From: an uncultured Gemmatimonadota bacterium
GTDB taxonomy: Bacteria; Gemmatimonadota; Gemmatimonadetes; Gemmatimonadales; Gemmatimonadaceae
Assembly (NCBI GenBank): GCA_902826615.1
Contig: CADEFN010000002.1
Span: 248,001 to 312,000 of the forward strand
Direction: 5' to 3'
DNA length: 64,000 nt
Shown: positions 24,756-41,883 of the stretch, piece by piece
Position numbering within the stretch: position 1 is the first letter of the stretch
Layout: each line of letters starts with the position of its first letter
Program-made: the position numbers and the translations under genes
The notes under the pieces: generated by a model
The model's database searches: none
Seen by the model: the letters and a program-made list of their open reading frames with translations, nothing else
Told to the model about the DNA's origin: nothing

Positions 24756-25079
24756 TCGGAAGAATTCCTCCGGGGAGGTCGGCGGCCCAGCCAGCATTTC
24801 GCACCGGAGTGCGAGGAAGCTCTGTGGCTTTGCGTCCGGGTCTTTCGGCCCGTTTGCCAGTTTATCGACCCGCCTTTCCGGGGAGGAGCGGCGGTTCGTG
24901 TGGGGGTCTTGCGGGGATCTTCTACGTGCACCACAGAGACGCTCGGGCGACCCGGGGCGCAACGCGGCTAACTACGAAAAACGGGGCCAATTTGTCCTGC
25001 GATCCAGCGCACACACGAGGCACGCATGTGCGGGTCATACCGCCTGTGATCCAGCGCACCCACGACGCGACTGCCGCGT
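24756..25079. promoter_or_regulatory. 324 nt intergenic region upstream of the Ig-repeat lipoprotein gene, with a direct repeat
   Basis: Both flanking genes are on the minus strand, so this is the 5' region of the lipoprotein gene. It contains two near-identical copies of GATCCAGCGCAC(A/C)CACGA, at 25001-25018 and 25048-25065, 47 nt apart (one mismatch). They could bind a regulator. A good ribosome-binding site (GGAGGA) sits 11 nt before the ATG. No credible open reading frame, RNA gene or terminator is seen. Confidence 0.45.
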
Positions 25080-33958: not shown

Positions 33959-34258
33959 GTGACTCTGGTGGTCAGCGAACGGGCACAGGGGGTCGTGCGC
34001 TTCTCCGTTCGTGTGGTACCGCGGGCTTCGGCCACGGCAGTCACCGGTGTCACCGACGGGGCCCTCAAGGTGCGTCTCGCCGCGCCTCCGGTGGATGGGG
34101 CAGCAAACGAGGCCCTCGTGGCCTTTCTGGCTGAATCGTTAGGCCTGCGATCACGCGCGGTGGCGCTCGTGTCGGGGCACACCTCGCGGCTCAAGGTGGT
34201 CGAGGTGACGGGTGCGACGCCGGCGCAGGTGCGTCTGCTCGGCGAGGGAACCCGGTAG
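33959..34258 (+). CDS. yggU: DUF167 / YggU family protein
   Basis: 99 residues starting with GTG. The conserved core is VRVVPRASATAVTGV, then LKVRLAAPPVDGAANEALVAFLAESLG and ALVSGHTSRLKVVEV. This matches the YggU/DUF167 family almost end to end. Function is not established. It forms a two-gene unit with yggT. Confidence 0.92.
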   Translation: MTLVVSERAQGVVRFSVRVVPRASATAVTGVTDGALKVRLAAPPVDGAANEALVAFLAESLGLRSRAVALVSGHTSRLKVVEVTGATPAQVRLLGEGTR

Positions 34259-34353
34259 CGCTTGCCGTGGTTCTCTCGTGTGACGATCATACGGTGACAA
34301 CGGCTTTCGTGGCGATTTACCGGCAACTTGCGGCCACGTTAAACAAACGCTAA

Positions 34354-34393
34354 AGCGCCAGCTCGGCGCTCATGGCGGCGGGCTTCTTTTTTT
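34354..34393 (+). terminator. terminator-like hairpin with T7 tract directly before metH, with a competing hairpin
   Basis: Stem AGCTCGGCGCT/GGCGGCGGGCT (34360-34370 with 34374-34384, one mismatch, two G-T pairs, CAT loop) is followed by TC and seven T (34387-34393). The metH ATG begins 6 nt later. The overlapping alternative hairpin AGCGCC/GGCGCT (34354-34359 with 34365-34370) cannot form at the same time. This is the geometry of a terminator/antiterminator pair, so transcription attenuation of metH is plausible. The 95 nt before it match no riboswitch consensus I know. A simple terminator for yggU is the alternative. Confidence 0.55.
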
Positions 34394-34399
34394 GACCTC

Positions 34400-37300
34400 A
34401 TGTCTTCCTCGGCACGGCTGGACCAGCTTCCCCTGCGCTCCGCATACCTCGACGCCCTCGCACGCGGAGTCCTGGTGTACGACGGGGCCATGGGCACCAG
34501 CATCCAGCGTTTTCAGCTGACGCCGGCGGACTTTGGTGGCGCGTCGCTGGAGGGATGCAACGATCACCTGGTGCTCACGCGGCCCGACGTGATTCAGGCG
34601 ATTCACGAGTCCTTCCTCGCCGTGGGCTGCGACGTGGTGGAGACGTGCACGTTCCAGAGCACGCCACGCCGTCTGGAGGAGTGGGGAATCGGGGAGAAGG
34701 TCGAAGCCGTGAACGTGGGAGCCGCGCGTGTGGCGCGTGCCGCTTGTGACAAGTACGCGACGCCTGAACGACCGCGGTTTGTCGCGGGCTCCATCGGCCC
34801 CACGGGAATGCTGCCGTCGAGCAGTGATCCGGCCCTGAGCCAGATCACCTTTGACGAGCTGGCGCAGAACTACTACGAGCAGGCCAAGGCCCTCGTCGCA
34901 GGCGGTGTGGATGTCCTGCTGGTCGAGACCGCACAGGACATCCTCGAGGTCAAGGCAGCAATTGCCGGCTTCCGGCGCCTGTTTTTCGAGCAGGGTTTCC
35001 GCGTGCCGGTGCAGGCGCAGGTCACCCTGGATACGAGCGGGCGCATGCTCCTGGGCACCGACATCGCCAGCGCGATGACGACGCTCGAGGCCCTCCCGGT
35101 GGATGTGATCGGGCTCAACTGCTCGACCGGCCCCGAGCACATGCGTGAGCCGGTGCGATACCTCTCGCAGCACGCCACCCGCTGGCTGTCGGTGATCCCC
35201 AACGCCGGGCTGCCGCAGAATACGGGGACGGGCGAGGCGATCTACAATCTCGAGCCGGCGCCGATGGCCGAGATGCTGTCGGGGTTTGTGCGTGAGTTCG
35301 GCGTGCGGATCGTGGGCGGGTGCTGCGGCACGTCACCGGAGCACCTGCGGGCGCTCAACCAGGCCATCGACGCGTTAGGCGTGCGGTCGACGGGCGCCGC
35401 GGCGCGGGGGGCCCCCCCCGAAAAACAGAATGAGATCAGCCCACCTCACGGGCAAGAGCATTCTGTCCCCGATCGTACCACTCCGTCCCCGACCGCCCCG
35501 CGGCCCCATGTCGCCAGGGCCTCGTCGGCCATGCGCGCCATTACCCTGCATCAGGACCCGCCCCCGCTCCTCGTCGGCGAACGGGTGAACTCCCAGGGCT
35601 CCCGCAAGGTCAAACGCCTGCTCCTCGCTGACGATTACGACGGCATCCTCGGCGTCGCCCGCGAACAAGGTGAATCCGGCGCGCATGTGCTCGATGTCTG
35701 CGTCGCACTCACCGAGCGCGGCGACGAAGCCGAGCAGATGTCCGCCGTCGTCAAGCTCCTCTCGATGAGTGTGGAGCAGCCCCTGATGATCGACTCCACC
35801 GAGGCGAACGTCATCAAGGCCGCCCTCGAACACGTGCCCGGCCGCGCGATCATCAATTCCATCAACATGGAAAATGGCCGGCAGCGCATCGATAGTGTCG
35901 TGCCCCTGGCCATCGAGCACGGCGCCGCGCTGGTCGCGCTGACCATCGACCCCGTCGGCATGGCGCGTACCCGGGAACGCAAACTCGAGGTAGCGCGCGC
36001 CATTCACGAACTCGTCGTGGGCGAATACGGCATGCAGCCGTCGGATCTCATCTTCGACGCGCTCACCTTCACCCTCGCCACCGGCGACGCCGAATGGATC
36101 GACTCGGCCAAGGAGACCATCGAGGGGATCCGGCTCATCAAACGTGAGTTGCCGGGGGTGCTCACCATCCTTGGCGTCTCCAATGTGAGCTTCGGGCTGG
36201 CCCCTGAAGCACGGGCCGTGCTCAACTCGGTCTTTCTGCACCACTGCGTGCAGGCCGGACTCGACTCGGCGATTGTGAACCCCGCACACGTCACACCGTA
36301 CGCCGAGATCTCGGCGGCCGATCGTGAGCTGGCCGACGACCTCGTGTTCAACCGGCGCCCCGACGCCTTGCAGCGCTTCATCTCCGCGTTCGACGGCGCT
36401 GAAAAGAAGCTGGGGGGCGAAAACGAAAAGGCTGATCCCACCGAGGGCATGTCGCCCGACGAGCGTGTGCACTGGATGATTGTGCATCGCAAGAAGGAAG
36501 GGATCGAAGCCGCCCTCGACGCCGCGGGCGTGCGCGAGGCGCCGGTCCGCGTGCTCAACAACGTCCTGTTGCCGGCCATGAAGGAAGTCGGAGACAAGTT
36601 CGGCGCGGGTGAGCTCATTCTGCCATTCGTGCTGCAGAGCGCCGAGGCCATGAAAAAGGCGGTGAAGCACCTCGAGCAGTTCCTTGAAAAAGCCGAGGGA
36701 TACACAAAGGGCAAGGTGGTGCTGGCGACGGTGTACGGCGACGTGCATGACATCGGGAAGTCGCTGGTCAACACCATTCTCTCCAACAACGGCTACACCG
36801 TGTTTGACCTTGGCAAACAGGTGCCGGTCAACACCATCATCGAAAAGGCGCAGGAAGTTGGCGCTGACGCCATCGGGCTCAGCGCATTGCTGGTCAGCAC
36901 GTCCAAGCAGATGCCGTTGTGTGTGCAGGAGCTCGATCGCCGCGGGATTCAGGTGCCGGTGCTCATCGGCGGCGCGGCCATCAACCGGCGCTTCGGGCGA
37001 CGCGCGCTTTTTGTCGATGGCGAACGTCCCTACGAGAGCGGGGTGTTCTACTGCAAGGATGCCTTTGAAGGCCTGGAGACCATGGACCGGCTCCAGGATC
37101 CTCAGCAACGCGCCGCGTTTGTGGCCAAGGGGCTGGACGAAGCCCGCACCGACGTGTTCCTGCACACCGCCGTCGGCAAAGACAAACTCGGCGGAGATAT
37201 GGCCGGTGAGCGGAGTGCCACCACGCGTCTGACCGAGCTGCCCCGTGCCCCCTTCGGCGGGGTGCGCGTGGAACGGGACATCCCGTTAGGTGAAGTGCTC

Positions 37301-38008
37301 GACCTCCTCGACCTCGACGAACTCTTCCGGTTGCAGTGGGGCGCGCGTGGCTCTGGCGACGCCTTCGAGCGCACCGTGCGCGAGGAGTTCGAACCCACCC
37401 TGGCGCGTCTCAAGGCCGAAGCCCTGCGCGATGGCTGGCTGCAGCCGCAGGCGGTGTACGGCTACTTCCCGGCGCGGGCCGAAGGCAACTCGGTGGTGGT
37501 GTACGACCCGGCCGCACTCGAATCAGATGGTGGCTCGCTGCGTGAACTGGGACGATTCGCCTTCCCGCGCCAGGAAGGACGCGACCGTCTCTGTCTTGCC
37601 GACTACTTCCGCGACGGCGACGACGCGCTCGATGTCGTGGCGCTGCAGGTGGTCACGGTCGGGAAACCTGCCACCGAGCGATTCGACGTACTCCAGGGTA
37701 ACAACGAGTACAGCGAGGCCTTTTACGTCCATGGCATTGCAGTCGAAGCCGCCGAAGCCACGGCGGAGTGGATGCACCGCCGCATTCGCCGGGAACTGGG
37801 ACTCCCGGACGGACGAGGCAAGCGCTACTCGTGGGGGTACGGGGCCTGCCCCGACCTCGATGATCATGCCCTCGTCTTCAAGCTGCTGCCCGCCGCCGAT
37901 GCGTTAGGCATGGTACTGACCAGCGCTTTCCAGCTCGTGCCCGAACAGTCCACCGCCGCGATCATCGTCCATCACCCCGAAGCGAAGTACTACGCGGTGC
38001 GAGGGTAG
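34400..38008 (+). CDS. metH: cobalamin-dependent methionine synthase
   Basis: 1202 residues, the full four-module MetH. The homocysteine-binding barrel (about 1-330) has zinc Cys in GLNCSTGP near 240 and GGCCGTSPEH near 307. The pterin-binding barrel (about 385-650) starts at LLVGERVNSQGS. The cobalamin cap and Rossmann domain (about 685-930) has the base-off motif DVHDIGK near 780 with its axial His. The SAM-binding reactivation domain (about 945-1202) is present. It transfers a methyl group from methyltetrahydrofolate to homocysteine. Residues about 333-380, between the first two barrels, are unusually long, low in complexity and of odd DNA composition (separate entry). It is followed 6 nt later by a homocysteine methyltransferase/MTHFR gene, giving a complete methylation unit. 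Confidence 0.97.
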   Translation: MSSSARLDQLPLRSAYLDALARGVLVYDGAMGTSIQRFQLTPADFGGASLEGCNDHLVLTRPDVIQAIHESFLAVGCDVVETCTFQSTPRRLEEWGIGEKVEAVNVGAARVARAACDKYATPERPRFVAGSIGPTGMLPSSSDPALSQITFDELAQNYYEQAKALVAGGVDVLLVETAQDILEVKAAIAGFRRLFFEQGFRVPVQAQVTLDTSGRMLLGTDIASAMTTLEALPVDVIGLNCSTGPEHMREPVRYLSQHATRWLSVIPNAGLPQNTGTGEAIYNLEPAPMAEMLSGFVREFGVRIVGGCCGTSPEHLRALNQAIDALGVRSTGAAARGAPPEKQNEISPPHGQEHSVPDRTTPSPTAPRPHVARASSAMRAITLHQDPPPLLVGERVNSQGSRKVKRLLLADDYDGILGVAREQGESGAHVLDVCVALTERGDEAEQMSAVVKLLSMSVEQPLMIDSTEANVIKAALEHVPGRAIINSINMENGRQRIDSVVPLAIEHGAALVALTIDPVGMARTRERKLEVARAIHELVVGEYGMQPSDLIFDALTFTLATGDAEWIDSAKETIEGIRLIKRELPGVLTILGVSNVSFGLAPEARAVLNSVFLHHCVQAGLDSAIVNPAHVTPYAEISAADRELADDLVFNRRPDALQRFISAFDGAEKKLGGENEKADPTEGMSPDERVHWMIVHRKKEGIEAALDAAGVREAPVRVLNNVLLPAMKEVGDKFGAGELILPFVLQSAEAMKKAVKHLEQFLEKAEGYTKGKVVLATVYGDVHDIGKSLVNTILSNNGYTVFDLGKQVPVNTIIEKAQEVGADAIGLSALLVSTSKQMPLCVQELDRRGIQVPVLIGGAAINRRFGRRALFVDGERPYESGVFYCKDAFEGLETMDRLQDPQQRAAFVAKGLDEARTDVFLHTAVGKDKLGGDMAGERSATTRLTELPRAPFGGVRVERDIPLGEVLDLLDLDELFRLQWGARGSGDAFERTVREEFEPTLARLKAEALRDGWLQPQAVYGYFPARAEGNSVVVYDPAALESDGGSLRELGRFAFPRQEGRDRLCLADYFRDGDDALDVVALQVVTVGKPATERFDVLQGNNEYSEAFYVHGIAVEAAEATAEWMHRRIRRELGLPDGRGKRYSWGYGACPDLDDHALVFKLLPAADALGMVLTSAFQLVPEQSTAAIIVHHPEAKYYAVRG
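35406..35495 (+). repeat. homopolymer and inverted-repeat insert inside the metH linker
   Basis: A G6-C8 run (35406-35419) is followed by an 8 bp inverted repeat, ACAGAATG (35425-35432) and CATTCTGT (35459-35466). Then come two direct copies of a GTCCCCGA(T/C)CG sequence (35466-35476 and 35485-35495). It stays in frame and encodes a Pro-rich linker. The composition differs from the surrounding gene. It resembles a REP-like palindromic element that landed in a tolerant interdomain linker, but this is a reading of pattern only. Confidence 0.45.
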
Positions 38009-38014
38009 CCGACC

Positions 38015-39859
38015 ATGTCCCGCCTGCTTGCTCCCGATTCGGTGATTGTCTTTGATGGTGCCATGGGCACCATGTTGTACGCACGTGGCGTGTTCATCAA
38101 TCAGTGTTACGACGAGCTCAACCTGCGTGCACCGGACCTGGTGCGGGATGTGCACGCCGCCTACGTCGCCGCCGGTGCCGAAGCCCTCGAAACCAACTCG
38201 TTCGGCGCGAATCGCTTCAAGCTCACACCGTTCGGGCTGCAGACCGAAGTGGCGGCCATCAACCGCACCGCGGCCACGCTGGCCCGTGACGCCGCGGGAC
38301 CCGACCGGATCGTGGCCGGCGCGGTTGGACCGTTAGGCATCCGGCTCGAACCCTTCGGCCCCACTTCGCACGCCGAAGCCCGCGAAGCGTTCGCGGAGCA
38401 GATGCAAGCCCTGCGCGATGGCGGTGTCGACTGCTTCTTGCTCGAGACCTTTGGTGATCTGGAGGAGATTCTCGAGGCCATCAAGGCCGCCCGCGAGGTT
38501 GCCCCCGGCGTCCCGGTCATCGCCCAGATGACCATCGGGCTCGACGGAGTGTCGCCGTATGGCGCCACCCCCGAAGACATGGCGCGCGCCCTCGATGCCG
38601 CCGGCGCCGATGTCATCGGCCTCAACTGCTCGGTCGGCCCTCAGATCATCCTCGAGGCCATCGAGAAGATGGCCACGGTCACCACCCGCAAGCTTTCGGC
38701 CATGCCTAACGCCGGGATGCCTCGCGAAGTGGGAGGCCGTCATATGTACATGGCGTCGCCGGAGTACATGGCCACCTACGCCCGTCACCTCGTGCAGGGT
38801 GGCGCGCGTATTGTGGGTGGCTGCTGCGGTACCACTCCCGATCACATCAAGGCCATGGTCGAGGGGATCCGTCCCCTGGTGCCACGCCTGCATCTCCCGG
38901 TCGCGGCACCGCCTAAACCGGCAGTGCCGAACGAGCCCGCGCGCCCGGCGGGAGCCGAGCCGGTGCCCTTTGCCGAACGCTCGCGTTTTGCCGGTAAGCT
39001 TGCACGCGGCGAGTTTGTCACTTCGGTCGAGATCGTCCCGCCGCGCGGCGTCGATGCCTCGCGGATGCTCCGGGACGTGGCCTCCCTCAAACTCGCCGGT
39101 ATCGACGCCGTCAATGTGCCTGACGGCCCGCGTGCGCAGAGCCGCATGGGGGCGATGCTCTGCTCGGTGCTGATTGAGCAGCAAGTGGGCATCGAAACCG
39201 TGTGCCACTACGCCTGCCGCGATCGCAACCTGCTCGGCATGCTCAGTGACTTGTTAGGCGGGGCGGCCATCGGGTTGCGGAATATTCTGCTCATCACGGG
39301 CGACCCGCCCAAGATGGGGCCCTATCCCGACGCCACGGCCGTCTTCGACATCGATGCCATCGGGCTCACCAACCTCGTACGCAACCTCAATCACGGCCTC
39401 GACCCGGGTGGCAACAGCATCGGCGCTCCGACTCGTTATGCCATCGGCGTGGGGGTGAACCCGGCCGCGGTCGATCCGGCGCACGAACGCCGCCGCTTTG
39501 CGTGGAAGGTGGACGCCGGCGCGGAGTACGCGATCACGCAGCCCGTGTTCGACACGAGACAACTGGAGCGGTTCCTGCGCGAAACCGAGGAGAACCGTAT
39601 CCCCGTCATCGCCGGCATCTGGCCCCTCGTCTCGGTGCGTAACGCCGAGTTCCTCGCCAACGAGGTCCCCGGTGTGGTGGTGCCTGACGAGGTGATTGTA
39701 CGGATGCGCCGCGCCAATGACCAGTCGCGCGAACATGCGGTCCAGGAAGGCATTGCCATCGCGCGCGAAATGCTCGAACGTGTCCGCGGCGCTGTGCAGG
39801 GTGCGCAGGTCTCGGCGCCGTTCGGGAAGGTGGACCTGGCACTGAGCGTTTTTGCCTGA
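38015..39859 (+). CDS. metF: bifunctional homocysteine S-methyltransferase / 5,10-methylenetetrahydrofolate reductase
   Basis: 614 residues. The N-terminal homocysteine methyltransferase barrel (about 1-290) has zinc Cys in GLNCSVGP near 205 and GGCCGTTPDH near 268. A Pro-rich hinge leads to a MetF-type reductase (about 325-614) showing SVEIVPPRG, ITGDPPKMG and AGIWPLVS. It would reduce methylene-THF to methyl-THF, the co-substrate of MetH. It starts 6 nt after metH, so the two are co-transcribed. The family resembles YitJ-like fusions. Why a second homocysteine methyltransferase domain sits beside MetH is unclear; SAM or S-methylmethionine may be its donor. Confidence 0.93.
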   Translation: MSRLLAPDSVIVFDGAMGTMLYARGVFINQCYDELNLRAPDLVRDVHAAYVAAGAEALETNSFGANRFKLTPFGLQTEVAAINRTAATLARDAAGPDRIVAGAVGPLGIRLEPFGPTSHAEAREAFAEQMQALRDGGVDCFLLETFGDLEEILEAIKAAREVAPGVPVIAQMTIGLDGVSPYGATPEDMARALDAAGADVIGLNCSVGPQIILEAIEKMATVTTRKLSAMPNAGMPREVGGRHMYMASPEYMATYARHLVQGGARIVGGCCGTTPDHIKAMVEGIRPLVPRLHLPVAAPPKPAVPNEPARPAGAEPVPFAERSRFAGKLARGEFVTSVEIVPPRGVDASRMLRDVASLKLAGIDAVNVPDGPRAQSRMGAMLCSVLIEQQVGIETVCHYACRDRNLLGMLSDLLGGAAIGLRNILLITGDPPKMGPYPDATAVFDIDAIGLTNLVRNLNHGLDPGGNSIGAPTRYAIGVGVNPAAVDPAHERRRFAWKVDAGAEYAITQPVFDTRQLERFLRETEENRIPVIAGIWPLVSVRNAEFLANEVPGVVVPDEVIVRMRRANDQSREHAVQEGIAIAREMLERVRGAVQGAQVSAPFGKVDLALSVFA

Positions 39860-39868
39860 CGAGTCATC

Positions 39869-40558
39869 ATGCGACTCCTGCTCACCGAGGACGACTCGGC
39901 CATCGCGCGGAGTGTGGCCCAGTTCCTCCGTCAGCAGGGCTTTGCGGTTGACGCCGTCACCAGTGGCGAAGACGCCCTGGTCCAAGCCGAGCGCAACACC
40001 TACGACGCCATCCTGCTCGACGTGCAGCTCCCGGGGATTGATGGCTACGCGGTGTGTCGGCAGCTGCGCGCGCGCGGTGTGCGGAGCCGCATCGTCATGG
40101 CGACCGCGCGCGACGGGGTGGAGGACCGCATTACCGGACTCGACCTCGGGGCCGACGACTACCTGGTCAAGCCCTATGCGTTAGGCGAACTGGCCGCCCG
40201 GCTGCGCGCGGTCCTCCGCCGCCCAAGCGAGCTGCAGCCGGTCGTTCTGCACGTCGGCGACCTCGCCCTGGACACGGGAACACGGGTGGTCACACGGGGC
40301 GCCCGACGCGCCGAACTCACCAACAAGGAGTTTGCCGTCCTGGAGTACCTCATGCGGCATGCCGGCGAGGTGGTCACGCGCGAACGCATCGGGGCCAGTG
40401 CCTGGGACGACAACTTCGATCCCGCGAGCAACGTGATCGATGTGTTTATCGCGCGGCTGCGCCGAAAGATCGATCACGAGGGAGAAACGCCGCTGCTCTC
40501 GACCATCCGCGGTGCGGGCTACCGGCTTGGACCCGCCCCTGCTGGCCGACCACGATGA
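39869..40558 (+). CDS. OmpR/PhoB-family response regulator
   Basis: 229 residues. The receiver domain has the acidic pocket EDD at 7-9, phospho-acceptor Asp51 in AILLDVQLPGIDGY and Lys near 104 in YLVKPYALGEL. The winged-helix DNA-binding domain follows (about 125-225) with NVIDVFIARLRRKID and the IRGAGYRL end motif. Its stop overlaps the start of the sensor kinase gene (ATGA). It lies directly upstream of a heavy-metal efflux operon, so control of that operon by metal stress is likely, as in CzcRS/CusRS (inference). It begins 9 nt after the MTHFR gene, so read-through from the methionine operon is possible. Confidence 0.95.
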   Translation: MRLLLTEDDSAIARSVAQFLRQQGFAVDAVTSGEDALVQAERNTYDAILLDVQLPGIDGYAVCRQLRARGVRSRIVMATARDGVEDRITGLDLGADDYLVKPYALGELAARLRAVLRRPSELQPVVLHVGDLALDTGTRVVTRGARRAELTNKEFAVLEYLMRHAGEVVTRERIGASAWDDNFDPASNVIDVFIARLRRKIDHEGETPLLSTIRGAGYRLGPAPAGRPR

Positions 40559-41883
40559 AGAGTGCACCGAGAGTCCGGCGTCGCCTGACGGCCTGGTACG
40601 GGCTCAGTGCGATGGTCCTGCTCTTCGCGGCGTTGCTGGCGGTGCGCCAATTCACACGACAAACTCTCCGCAACGAACACAACGCCGCCACCACCCGGTC
40701 GGCGGAGCTGGTGCGCGCCTTTTTCCGCGCCGAACTCACCGAGTACCGGCAGGTCGACGTCACCGTGGCTCATCTGGCGTCGGAGCTGGTGTTTGCCGGA
40801 ATCGGCATCGACTTCCTCAAGCCCGACGGCACGCTCTTCGCCTCAGCCCGGCGCCCGCTGCGTGAAGCCGAGCCGCTCCCACCGGTTGCGGTGCTTGCTC
40901 TGCCCCTCGAGGAGCAGCTGGCACCGAACTGGATGCTCCGTCTCCGCATCTCTACGGCCTCTCTTGCCACCGCTCAGGCGCGCATCGACCGGCTGACCCT
41001 CCTCGCCGTCCCGCTGGTGGCAGCACTCGCCGCCTTCGTGGCCTGGCTCACCACCGGCCGGGCCCTCGCGCCAGTGCGCACCATGGCCGCCGCGGCTGAC
41101 AAACTTCAGGCAGCTGGCACCGGACGCCTCCCCGTCGCCGATCCCACCGACGAGTTCGGACGCCTCGGGAATGCCTTCAACCGGCTGCTGGAGCGGCTCG
41201 ACGCCGCACTCGCGCAGCAGCGCCGTTTTCTCGCCGACGCCGCCCATGAATTGCGCACTCCCATCGCCCGGATGCGCAGTGAATCGGAGGCACGACTCGC
41301 CGCACCACCAGGTGCTGATGACCGCCTGGCGCTGGAGCGTGTTCGGGACGAACTCGGCCACACCTCGCAGCTGATTGATGAGTTGCTGTACGTGGCGCGG
41401 AGTGACGCCGACGCCCTCCCCGTGCAGGCGGCACCGCTTTTTCTCGACGATGTCGTGTCGGATGTGGTGGCCCGGTTCGGCACGGAAGCCCGCGCACGCG
41501 GTGTGACCTTCGATCTCACCGCACTCCGCGAGGCGCGGATTGCCGGCGATGCCACCTTGCTGCAACGACTGGTTGGTGTGCTCGTCGATAACGCCGTACG
41601 GTACTCACCCGAGGGCGGGACCATCGCGGTGAGTGTCGGGCCGGACGCCGGCCGAGTCTTGCTCCGCGTGGATGACGCCGGCCCCGGCATTCCGCCGGAC
41701 GAACGGGAGATGGTCTTCCATCGCTTCTACCGGGGGCAGGCGGCGCGCGCCATCGCTCCCGAAGGCACCGGACTCGGCCTGGCCATCGCTGCGGACGCCG
41801 CAGCACGGCACGGGGCCCACATAACCCTGAGCGAGAGCCCGCTTGGCGGTGCGGCCCTGCTCGTCTCCTTCCCGGCCGCCTAG
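40555..41883 (+). CDS. sensor histidine kinase (QseC/CzcS-like)
   Basis: 442 residues from the ATG that overlaps the regulator stop; the long upstream in-frame extension is the other frame of the regulator gene. Layout: membrane helix near 15-35, periplasmic sensor of about 115 residues, second membrane helix near 150-170, HAMP linker, dimerisation helix with phospho-acceptor His231 in DAAHELRTP, then a GHKL ATPase with NAVRYSPEGG, DDAGPGIP and GTGLGLAIAADAA. The short sensor loop is of the type used to sense periplasmic metal or cationic signals, but no obvious metal-ligand cluster is visible. It pairs with the preceding regulator. Confidence 0.94.
   Translation: MKSAPRVRRRLTAWYGLSAMVLLFAALLAVRQFTRQTLRNEHNAATTRSAELVRAFFRAELTEYRQVDVTVAHLASELVFAGIGIDFLKPDGTLFASARRPLREAEPLPPVAVLALPLEEQLAPNWMLRLRISTASLATAQARIDRLTLLAVPLVAALAAFVAWLTTGRALAPVRTMAAAADKLQAAGTGRLPVADPTDEFGRLGNAFNRLLERLDAALAQQRRFLADAAHELRTPIARMRSESEARLAAPPGADDRLALERVRDELGHTSQLIDELLYVARSDADALPVQAAPLFLDDVVSDVVARFGTEARARGVTFDLTALREARIAGDATLLQRLVGVLVDNAVRYSPEGGTIAVSVGPDAGRVLLRVDDAGPGIPPDEREMVFHRFYRGQAARAIAPEGTGLGLAIAADAAARHGAHITLSESPLGGAALLVSFPAA

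Follow-up and report, generated by a model that had tools for sequence, protein, structure and literature searches.

Riboswitches of the SAM-II class (SAM_alpha, RF00521) with intrinsic terminators have been known since 2005 (Corbino et al., 2005; PMC1273637). In Sinorhizobium meliloti, high SAM was accompanied by an increase in a short metZ RNA and a decrease in the metZ mRNA (Scheuer et al., 2022; PMC9373788). In a study of proteobacterial regulons, SAM_alpha was found only in the Rhizobiales and Rhodobacterales, with metY as its core target (Leyn et al., 2014; PMC4239095). These papers and the others cited below by PMC number are represented here by portions of their text. No SAM-II control of metH appears in the portions available of the three papers above or of PMC10907184, an open-access and partial coverage that is no proof of absence, and PMC9481103 is among the literature matching both SAM-II riboswitch and metH. 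Within the open-access literature searched, likewise partly covered, no report was found of SAM-II in the Gemmatimonadota, including control of metH there, or of SAM-II with threonine synthase.

The locus considered here lies in a 64,000-nt stretch of DNA (the window) from an uncultured Gemmatimonadota bacterium. We propose, with a probability of roughly 0.88, that the leader of metH in this stretch is a SAM-II riboswitch whose expression platform terminates transcription and which serves the metH operon as an OFF switch; SAM binding and termination are both predicted from the sequence. The device would very probably halt metH expression when cellular SAM suffices.

The metH leader

The features on which this reading is based are as follows.

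34262-34290, + strand: probable metH promoter suggested by the sequence; -35-like TTGCCG (34262-34267), 17-nt spacer, -10-like GATCAT (34285-34290)
34299-34373, + strand: match to the SAM-II (SAM_alpha, RF00521) aptamer over the full model, 1-79; 39.8 bits (cmscan)
34308-34313 (CGTGGC) with 34333-34338 (GCCACG), + strand: aptamer P1 from the Rfam alignment; all six pairs present in the window, with 98.7% of cells paired in 51 leaders
34322-34324 (GGC) with 34357-34359 (GCC), and 34330-34332 (GCG) with 34348-34350 (CGC), + strand: aptamer pseudoknot P2; 98.0% and 99.3% of cells paired
34354-34359 (AGCGCC) with 34365-34370 (GGCGCT), + strand: putative antiterminator hairpin with a 5-nt loop (34360-34364); -9.9 kcal/mol, conserved in the 51 leaders
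34360-34370 with 34374-34384, then T7 at 34387-34393, + strand: predicted intrinsic terminator; -15.3 kcal/mol, z -3.48, T tract in 50 of 51 leaders
34400-38008, + strand: metH, B12-dependent methionine synthase, 1202 aa (Pfam; TIGR02082, 1070.8 bits, cut-off 1010.85)
38015-39859, + strand: bifunctional homocysteine S-methyltransferase / methylenetetrahydrofolate reductase, 614 aa (Pfam; NF006396, 722 bits, cut-off 453)

The methyltransferase/reductase gene begins 6 nt after metH, a spacing that suggests co-transcription as the second gene of an operon. A response regulator and histidine kinase pair, recognised by eye at 39869-41883 of the window, begins 9 nt past this operon and is perhaps read through from it.

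The aptamer match (75 nt) abuts the terminator and lies on the same strand as metH. Its score exceeds the gathering cut-off of 36 by just 3.8 bits, with an E-value of 1.7e-5 over the window and of 5.5e-8 over 201 nt. In the alignment L1 GAUUU, UUGC, CCACG, UUAAACAA and CGCUAAAG agree with the RF00521 consensus, the conserved segments L1 GAUUU, UUGC and 3' GCUAAA being identical to it, and all six P2 pairs are present in the window. The aptamer sits in the leader of a gene of the methionine/SAM pathway, and the second copy in this genome precedes homoserine dehydrogenase. The original prediction, which had seen no known riboswitch consensus upstream of the hairpin, was mistaken on this point; SAM had been among the signals it considered, and the match above the gathering score favours that choice. 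No cobalamin or SAH riboswitch was matched by Rfam in the window, where the only family besides RF00521 was a c-di-GMP-I riboswitch (RF01051) far off on the minus strand (24778-24868, 62.9 bits). Cobalamin sensing by the metH leader was considered and rejected, there being no Rfam match for it.

The terminator stem, 11 positions long and interrupted by a single G.G mismatch at 34366/34378, carries a CAT loop (34371-34373), and 6 nt (34394-34399) separate the T7 tract from the metH ATG at 34400. Taken alone, this 25-nt hairpin is far stabler than its own shuffles (z -3.48, 0/200). No such excess stability is seen for the 47-nt stretch (z -0.78) or for the 106-nt leader (z 0.17), and the pseudoknot-free minimum-energy fold of the whole leader is a different structure that lacks P1. 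A generic terminator scan gave 5 sites against 4.7 expected and passed over the metH hairpin, probably because of the mismatch; the scan was not used as evidence. The strong evidence for a real terminator is comparative, the predicted hairpin with its T tract being found in 50 of 51 distinct leaders from the family.

The left arm of the terminator includes 34365-34370, the right arm of the alternative hairpin, and this strand is therefore common to both. Similarly, the GCC at 34357-34359 closes the pseudoknot with 34322-34324 and also lies within the left arm of the antiterminator. The pseudoknot, the antiterminator and the terminator thus share strands and would exclude one another in a chain, which is the arrangement of an OFF switch. 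The original prediction was correct about the presence and position of the hairpin, of the T7 tract and of the alternative hairpin; the last of these can now be described more sharply as an antiterminator whose left arm would be removed by the 3' strand of the pseudoknot.

Proposed switching between the two hairpins

Partition functions were calculated with the aptamer in either state. When P1 was held and the P2 bases were left free, the probability of the antiterminator was 0.99-1.00 for 3' ends from 34371 to 34381 and 0.89 at 34383. When the bases of both P1 and P2 were held, the antiterminator fell to at most 0.02 and the terminator reached 0.99 at 34383. For the full transcript at equilibrium with P2 free, the terminator was favoured over the antiterminator (0.76 vs 0.24), so that read-through at low SAM, the ON state, must be kinetic. 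Shared strands, conservation and folding with P2 free or held all point to a mutually exclusive terminator and antiterminator tied to the sensor, and in this way bear out the earlier suggestion of an attenuator with exclusive hairpins before metH.

On the proposed mechanism, RNA polymerase would start near 34297, just past the box pair at 34262-34290. P1 would fold first, and stable closure of P2 would require SAM, as is known from another SAM-II RNA and assumed to hold here. At low SAM, 34357-34359 would remain free and AGCGCC would capture GGCGCT once it emerges, occupying the left arm of the terminator, and polymerase would continue into metH. At high SAM, P2 would keep 34357-34359, the antiterminator would not form, the hairpin at 34360-34384 would fold and transcription would end at the T7 tract, which lies 7-13 nt upstream of the ATG.

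Conservation of the leader in the family

A search of 99 genomes of the family for MetH gave some match in 95, from which the 59 orthologues of the same MetH type, at roughly 71% identity or above, were used, more distant MetH-like matches being left out. The closest named MetH matches come from Gemmatimonadetes/Gemmatimonadaceae metagenome assemblies and reach 84% identity at best. The SAM-II core motif was found before metH in 48 of the 59, a count that rests on a looser motif than the strict one used at first, which missed many leaders. Ten more were recovered by the family covariance model (65-80 bits) and one was cut by a contig end; the element is present in 58 of the 58 orthologues with a leader available. 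The reading of 14 motif-less metH leaders as losses was rejected, since all 14 match the family model R1, and the 13 of them that were inspected (all but L038) have TAATCC in place of TAAA. R1 was built from 51 leaders including that of the window, and its score for the window is for this reason no evidence. These 51 distinct leaders were obtained by dropping identical leaders, leaders without the TAAA...GCTAAA motif, three distant relatives (L052, L053, L070) and one leader whose aptamer was cut by a contig end (L143).

Across the 51 leaders, 98.2% of cells were paired in P1, P2 and the terminator, as against at most 43.9% when the alignment was slid by 1-3 columns, although for P2 this conservation is partly due to selection because GCTAAA belongs to the motif by which the leaders were chosen. 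The corresponding values for the antiterminator were 94.9% and at most 71.1%. The 5-bp core of the antiterminator is complete in 40 of the 51 (shuffles: mean 13.8, maximum 24) and incomplete in 11; L135, L138 and L171 fit poorly. The T tract was missing from a single leader, and the terminator was stabler than the antiterminator in 51/51.

Several base changes affect both partners of a pair. The P2 pair 34322-34359 changes on both sides, from G-C to A-U, in 7 leaders, and a change of GCC to GCT in the shared strand goes together with GGC to AGC in L1 and GGCGC to AGCGC downstream. CCGCC accompanies GGCGG in related leaders; the three CCGCC/CCGCT leaders all come from one genus and may represent a single event. 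For P1, P2 and the terminator only two pairs change on both sides, and neither this count nor the number of pair types rises above shuffles. For the antiterminator the covariation score was reached by 0/500 shuffles, whereas the same two measures were reached by 57 and 435 of 500. Judged from the aligned leaders, covariation is real but modest. The original prediction had named covariation among related metH leaders as a check and had taken leaders of close relatives without the paired hairpins as grounds for abandoning it; the hairpins proved to be conserved in the family leaders.

Alternative explanations

The box pair falls in the gap between the DUF167 gene, which ends at 34258, and the aptamer. 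Of the 51 aligned leaders, 27 have TTGCC in the 60 nt that precede them, compared with 3.5 in shuffles, and the two-box score is 8.6 compared with 6.9. The location of the boxes between the upstream gene and the aptamer suggests that metH most likely has its own promoter upstream of the aptamer, and the earlier view that transcripts arrive from upstream is probably wrong. This bears on an explanation in which the hairpin is a plain terminator of the upstream yggT-DUF167 transcript, metH is transcribed from a promoter of its own beyond the T tract and the match to the aptamer model is a relic. Such a terminator would suit the co-directional upstream genes ending where they do, but it would leave just 6 nt between the T tract and the ATG for the start of metH transcription, it is at odds with a box pair upstream of the aptamer, and it does not sit well with the family-wide conservation at metH of the aptamer and of the two hairpins. 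We consider it extremely unlikely. Equally improbable in our estimation is an attenuator that responds to a different signal from SAM, be it SAH, cobalamin or the translation of a leader peptide. MetH does use cobalamin and makes methionine, and the L3 loop of such elements is altered in 15 of 298 genomes, in which ligand or affinity could have shifted. The leader of the window, however, is matched only by RF00521 and, weakly, by RF01726, the window contains no cobalamin or SAH riboswitch match, L1 GAUUU, UUGC and GCUAAA agree with the SAM-II consensus, and the SAM-II RNA of A. tumefaciens is described in the available part of the source as unresponsive to SAH or methionine (PMC1273637).

It could also be argued that the same SAM-II aptamer acts here mainly on translation, the hairpin beside the ATG blocking the ribosome and not transcription. 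Between the end of the hairpin and the ATG there are 15 nt, occlusion of the ribosome site is the mode of action of the well-studied metX SAM-II (PMC10907184, as far as the text available goes), and four other SAM-II copies of the order (L008, L009, L011, L026) end at a start codon with no terminator. Against this, the T tract is kept in 50/51 leaders whereas its distance from the start codon varies among relatives, and no Shine-Dalgarno-like 4-mer precedes the metH ATG. This last observation agrees with the original prediction, which had found no obvious ribosome-binding site, but by a crude test 4-mers of this kind show no enrichment before starts relative to the inside of genes in the window (10/42 ORFs vs 10/42 background), so that their absence before metH tells little. 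Control mainly at translation seems to us very unlikely, and a SAM-II riboswitch acting through termination is the reading retained in what follows.

SAM-II elsewhere in the genome and phylum

RF00521 matches 202 of 298 sampled genomes of the phylum, 174 of them above the cut-off, and none of 14 control genomes. The genome containing the window has two copies, and no third was detected with a model derived from relatives. The copy outside the window (L002; G000:C2:190962-191036) scores 28.1 bits, below the cut-off, and is followed by a terminator-like CCCCGA...TCGGGG-ATTTTTT and then by the homoserine dehydrogenase gene. Other copies in the phylum precede metX (a target based on matches below the cut-off), metF, a second metH type, the methyltransferase/reductase fusion, panB, cysH and threonine synthase. 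The copy at cysH (phosphoadenylyl-sulfate reductase; L269) is in a genome of the same genus. At L008, L009, L011 and L026 the gene whose start codon abuts the aptamer is the methyltransferase/reductase fusion (Pfam-checked in L009), and the missing terminator suggests that control there is probably translational.

The product of panB, ketopantoate hydroxymethyltransferase, is a methylene-folate-using enzyme of vitamin B5 synthesis. This gene follows SAM-II directly in six Gemmatimonadaceae genomes (G024, G210, G190, G127, G317 and G321; loci L003, L007, L017, L021, L229 and L235), and the scores of these copies are among the highest obtained for SAM-II in the phylum. A second, divergent match lies at 1785-1888 of L003, about 0.2-0.3 kb from the one at panB. 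No panB match was found in the genome containing the window, 30 panB loci from the family search (L176-L205) showed no SAM-II motif, and among 40 further panB loci RF00521 was present at 3, one of them (G228) about 1.5 kb away.

The L3 variant UAAUCC for UAAA occurs in 15 of 298 genomes from three genera, before metH in two (L122, L123, L127, L142, L148, L150, L152, L163, L165, L167) and before threonine synthase in the third, which belongs to another family of the order (L246-L248). Where scanned, the variant lies below the Rfam cut-off, with a match in 11 of 14 sources at 22.9-31.4 bits. In solved SAM-II the L3 adenines make an A-minor twist with P1 (PMC12434664, in the part available), and the A lost in the variant would correspond to A37 of that structure in our own alignment by eye. 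SAM-II may be the main SAM sensor of much of the Gemmatimonadota, acting mostly through transcription termination on targets (metH, metF, metX, homoserine dehydrogenase, cysH, threonine synthase and a separate panB copy) wider than those reported in proteobacteria, with UAAUCC suggesting that the loop packing on P1 can be built stably in a second way; we regard the case for and against this broader picture as evenly balanced.

Comparison with described systems

The SAM-II long loop family (RF01726) has the same fold class, but the metH leader scores 21.6 bits against its cut-off of 44 and is not a member. The proteobacterial SAM_alpha regulon shares with the Gemmatimonadota the targets hom and metX; in the part of the source available hom, metA, metX, metC and metW are named and metH is not (Leyn et al., 2014; PMC4239095). 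At S. meliloti metZ, as here, SAM binding is predicted to form a Rho-independent terminator, although the phylum and the gene differ and that system is experimentally supported whereas the present one is predicted from the sequence (Scheuer et al., 2022; PMC9373788, in part). A previously unexplained hairpin becomes a directly testable mechanism, one that would link metH, which depends on cobalamin and feeds SAM synthesis, to SAM itself in a phylum that has received little study. The 51 natural variants of a terminator/antiterminator pair that shares a strand with the aptamer are good material for the study of signalling from pseudoknot to terminator. The nearest likeness is to the elements of Corbino et al. 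(2005; PMC1273637, as far as available), which have P1 and a P2 pseudoknot with conserved L1 and GCUAAA before a methionine gene, and an intrinsic terminator between P2 and the ORF that was predicted to form an OFF switch. Those elements are from alpha-proteobacteria and a few others, whereas the one described here belongs to the metH operon of a member of the Gemmatimonadota and has a conserved antiterminator that shares a P2 strand and can be traced in 51 leaders. It is a device of known type, in a phylum for which no report was found, and its expression platform is clear and conserved.
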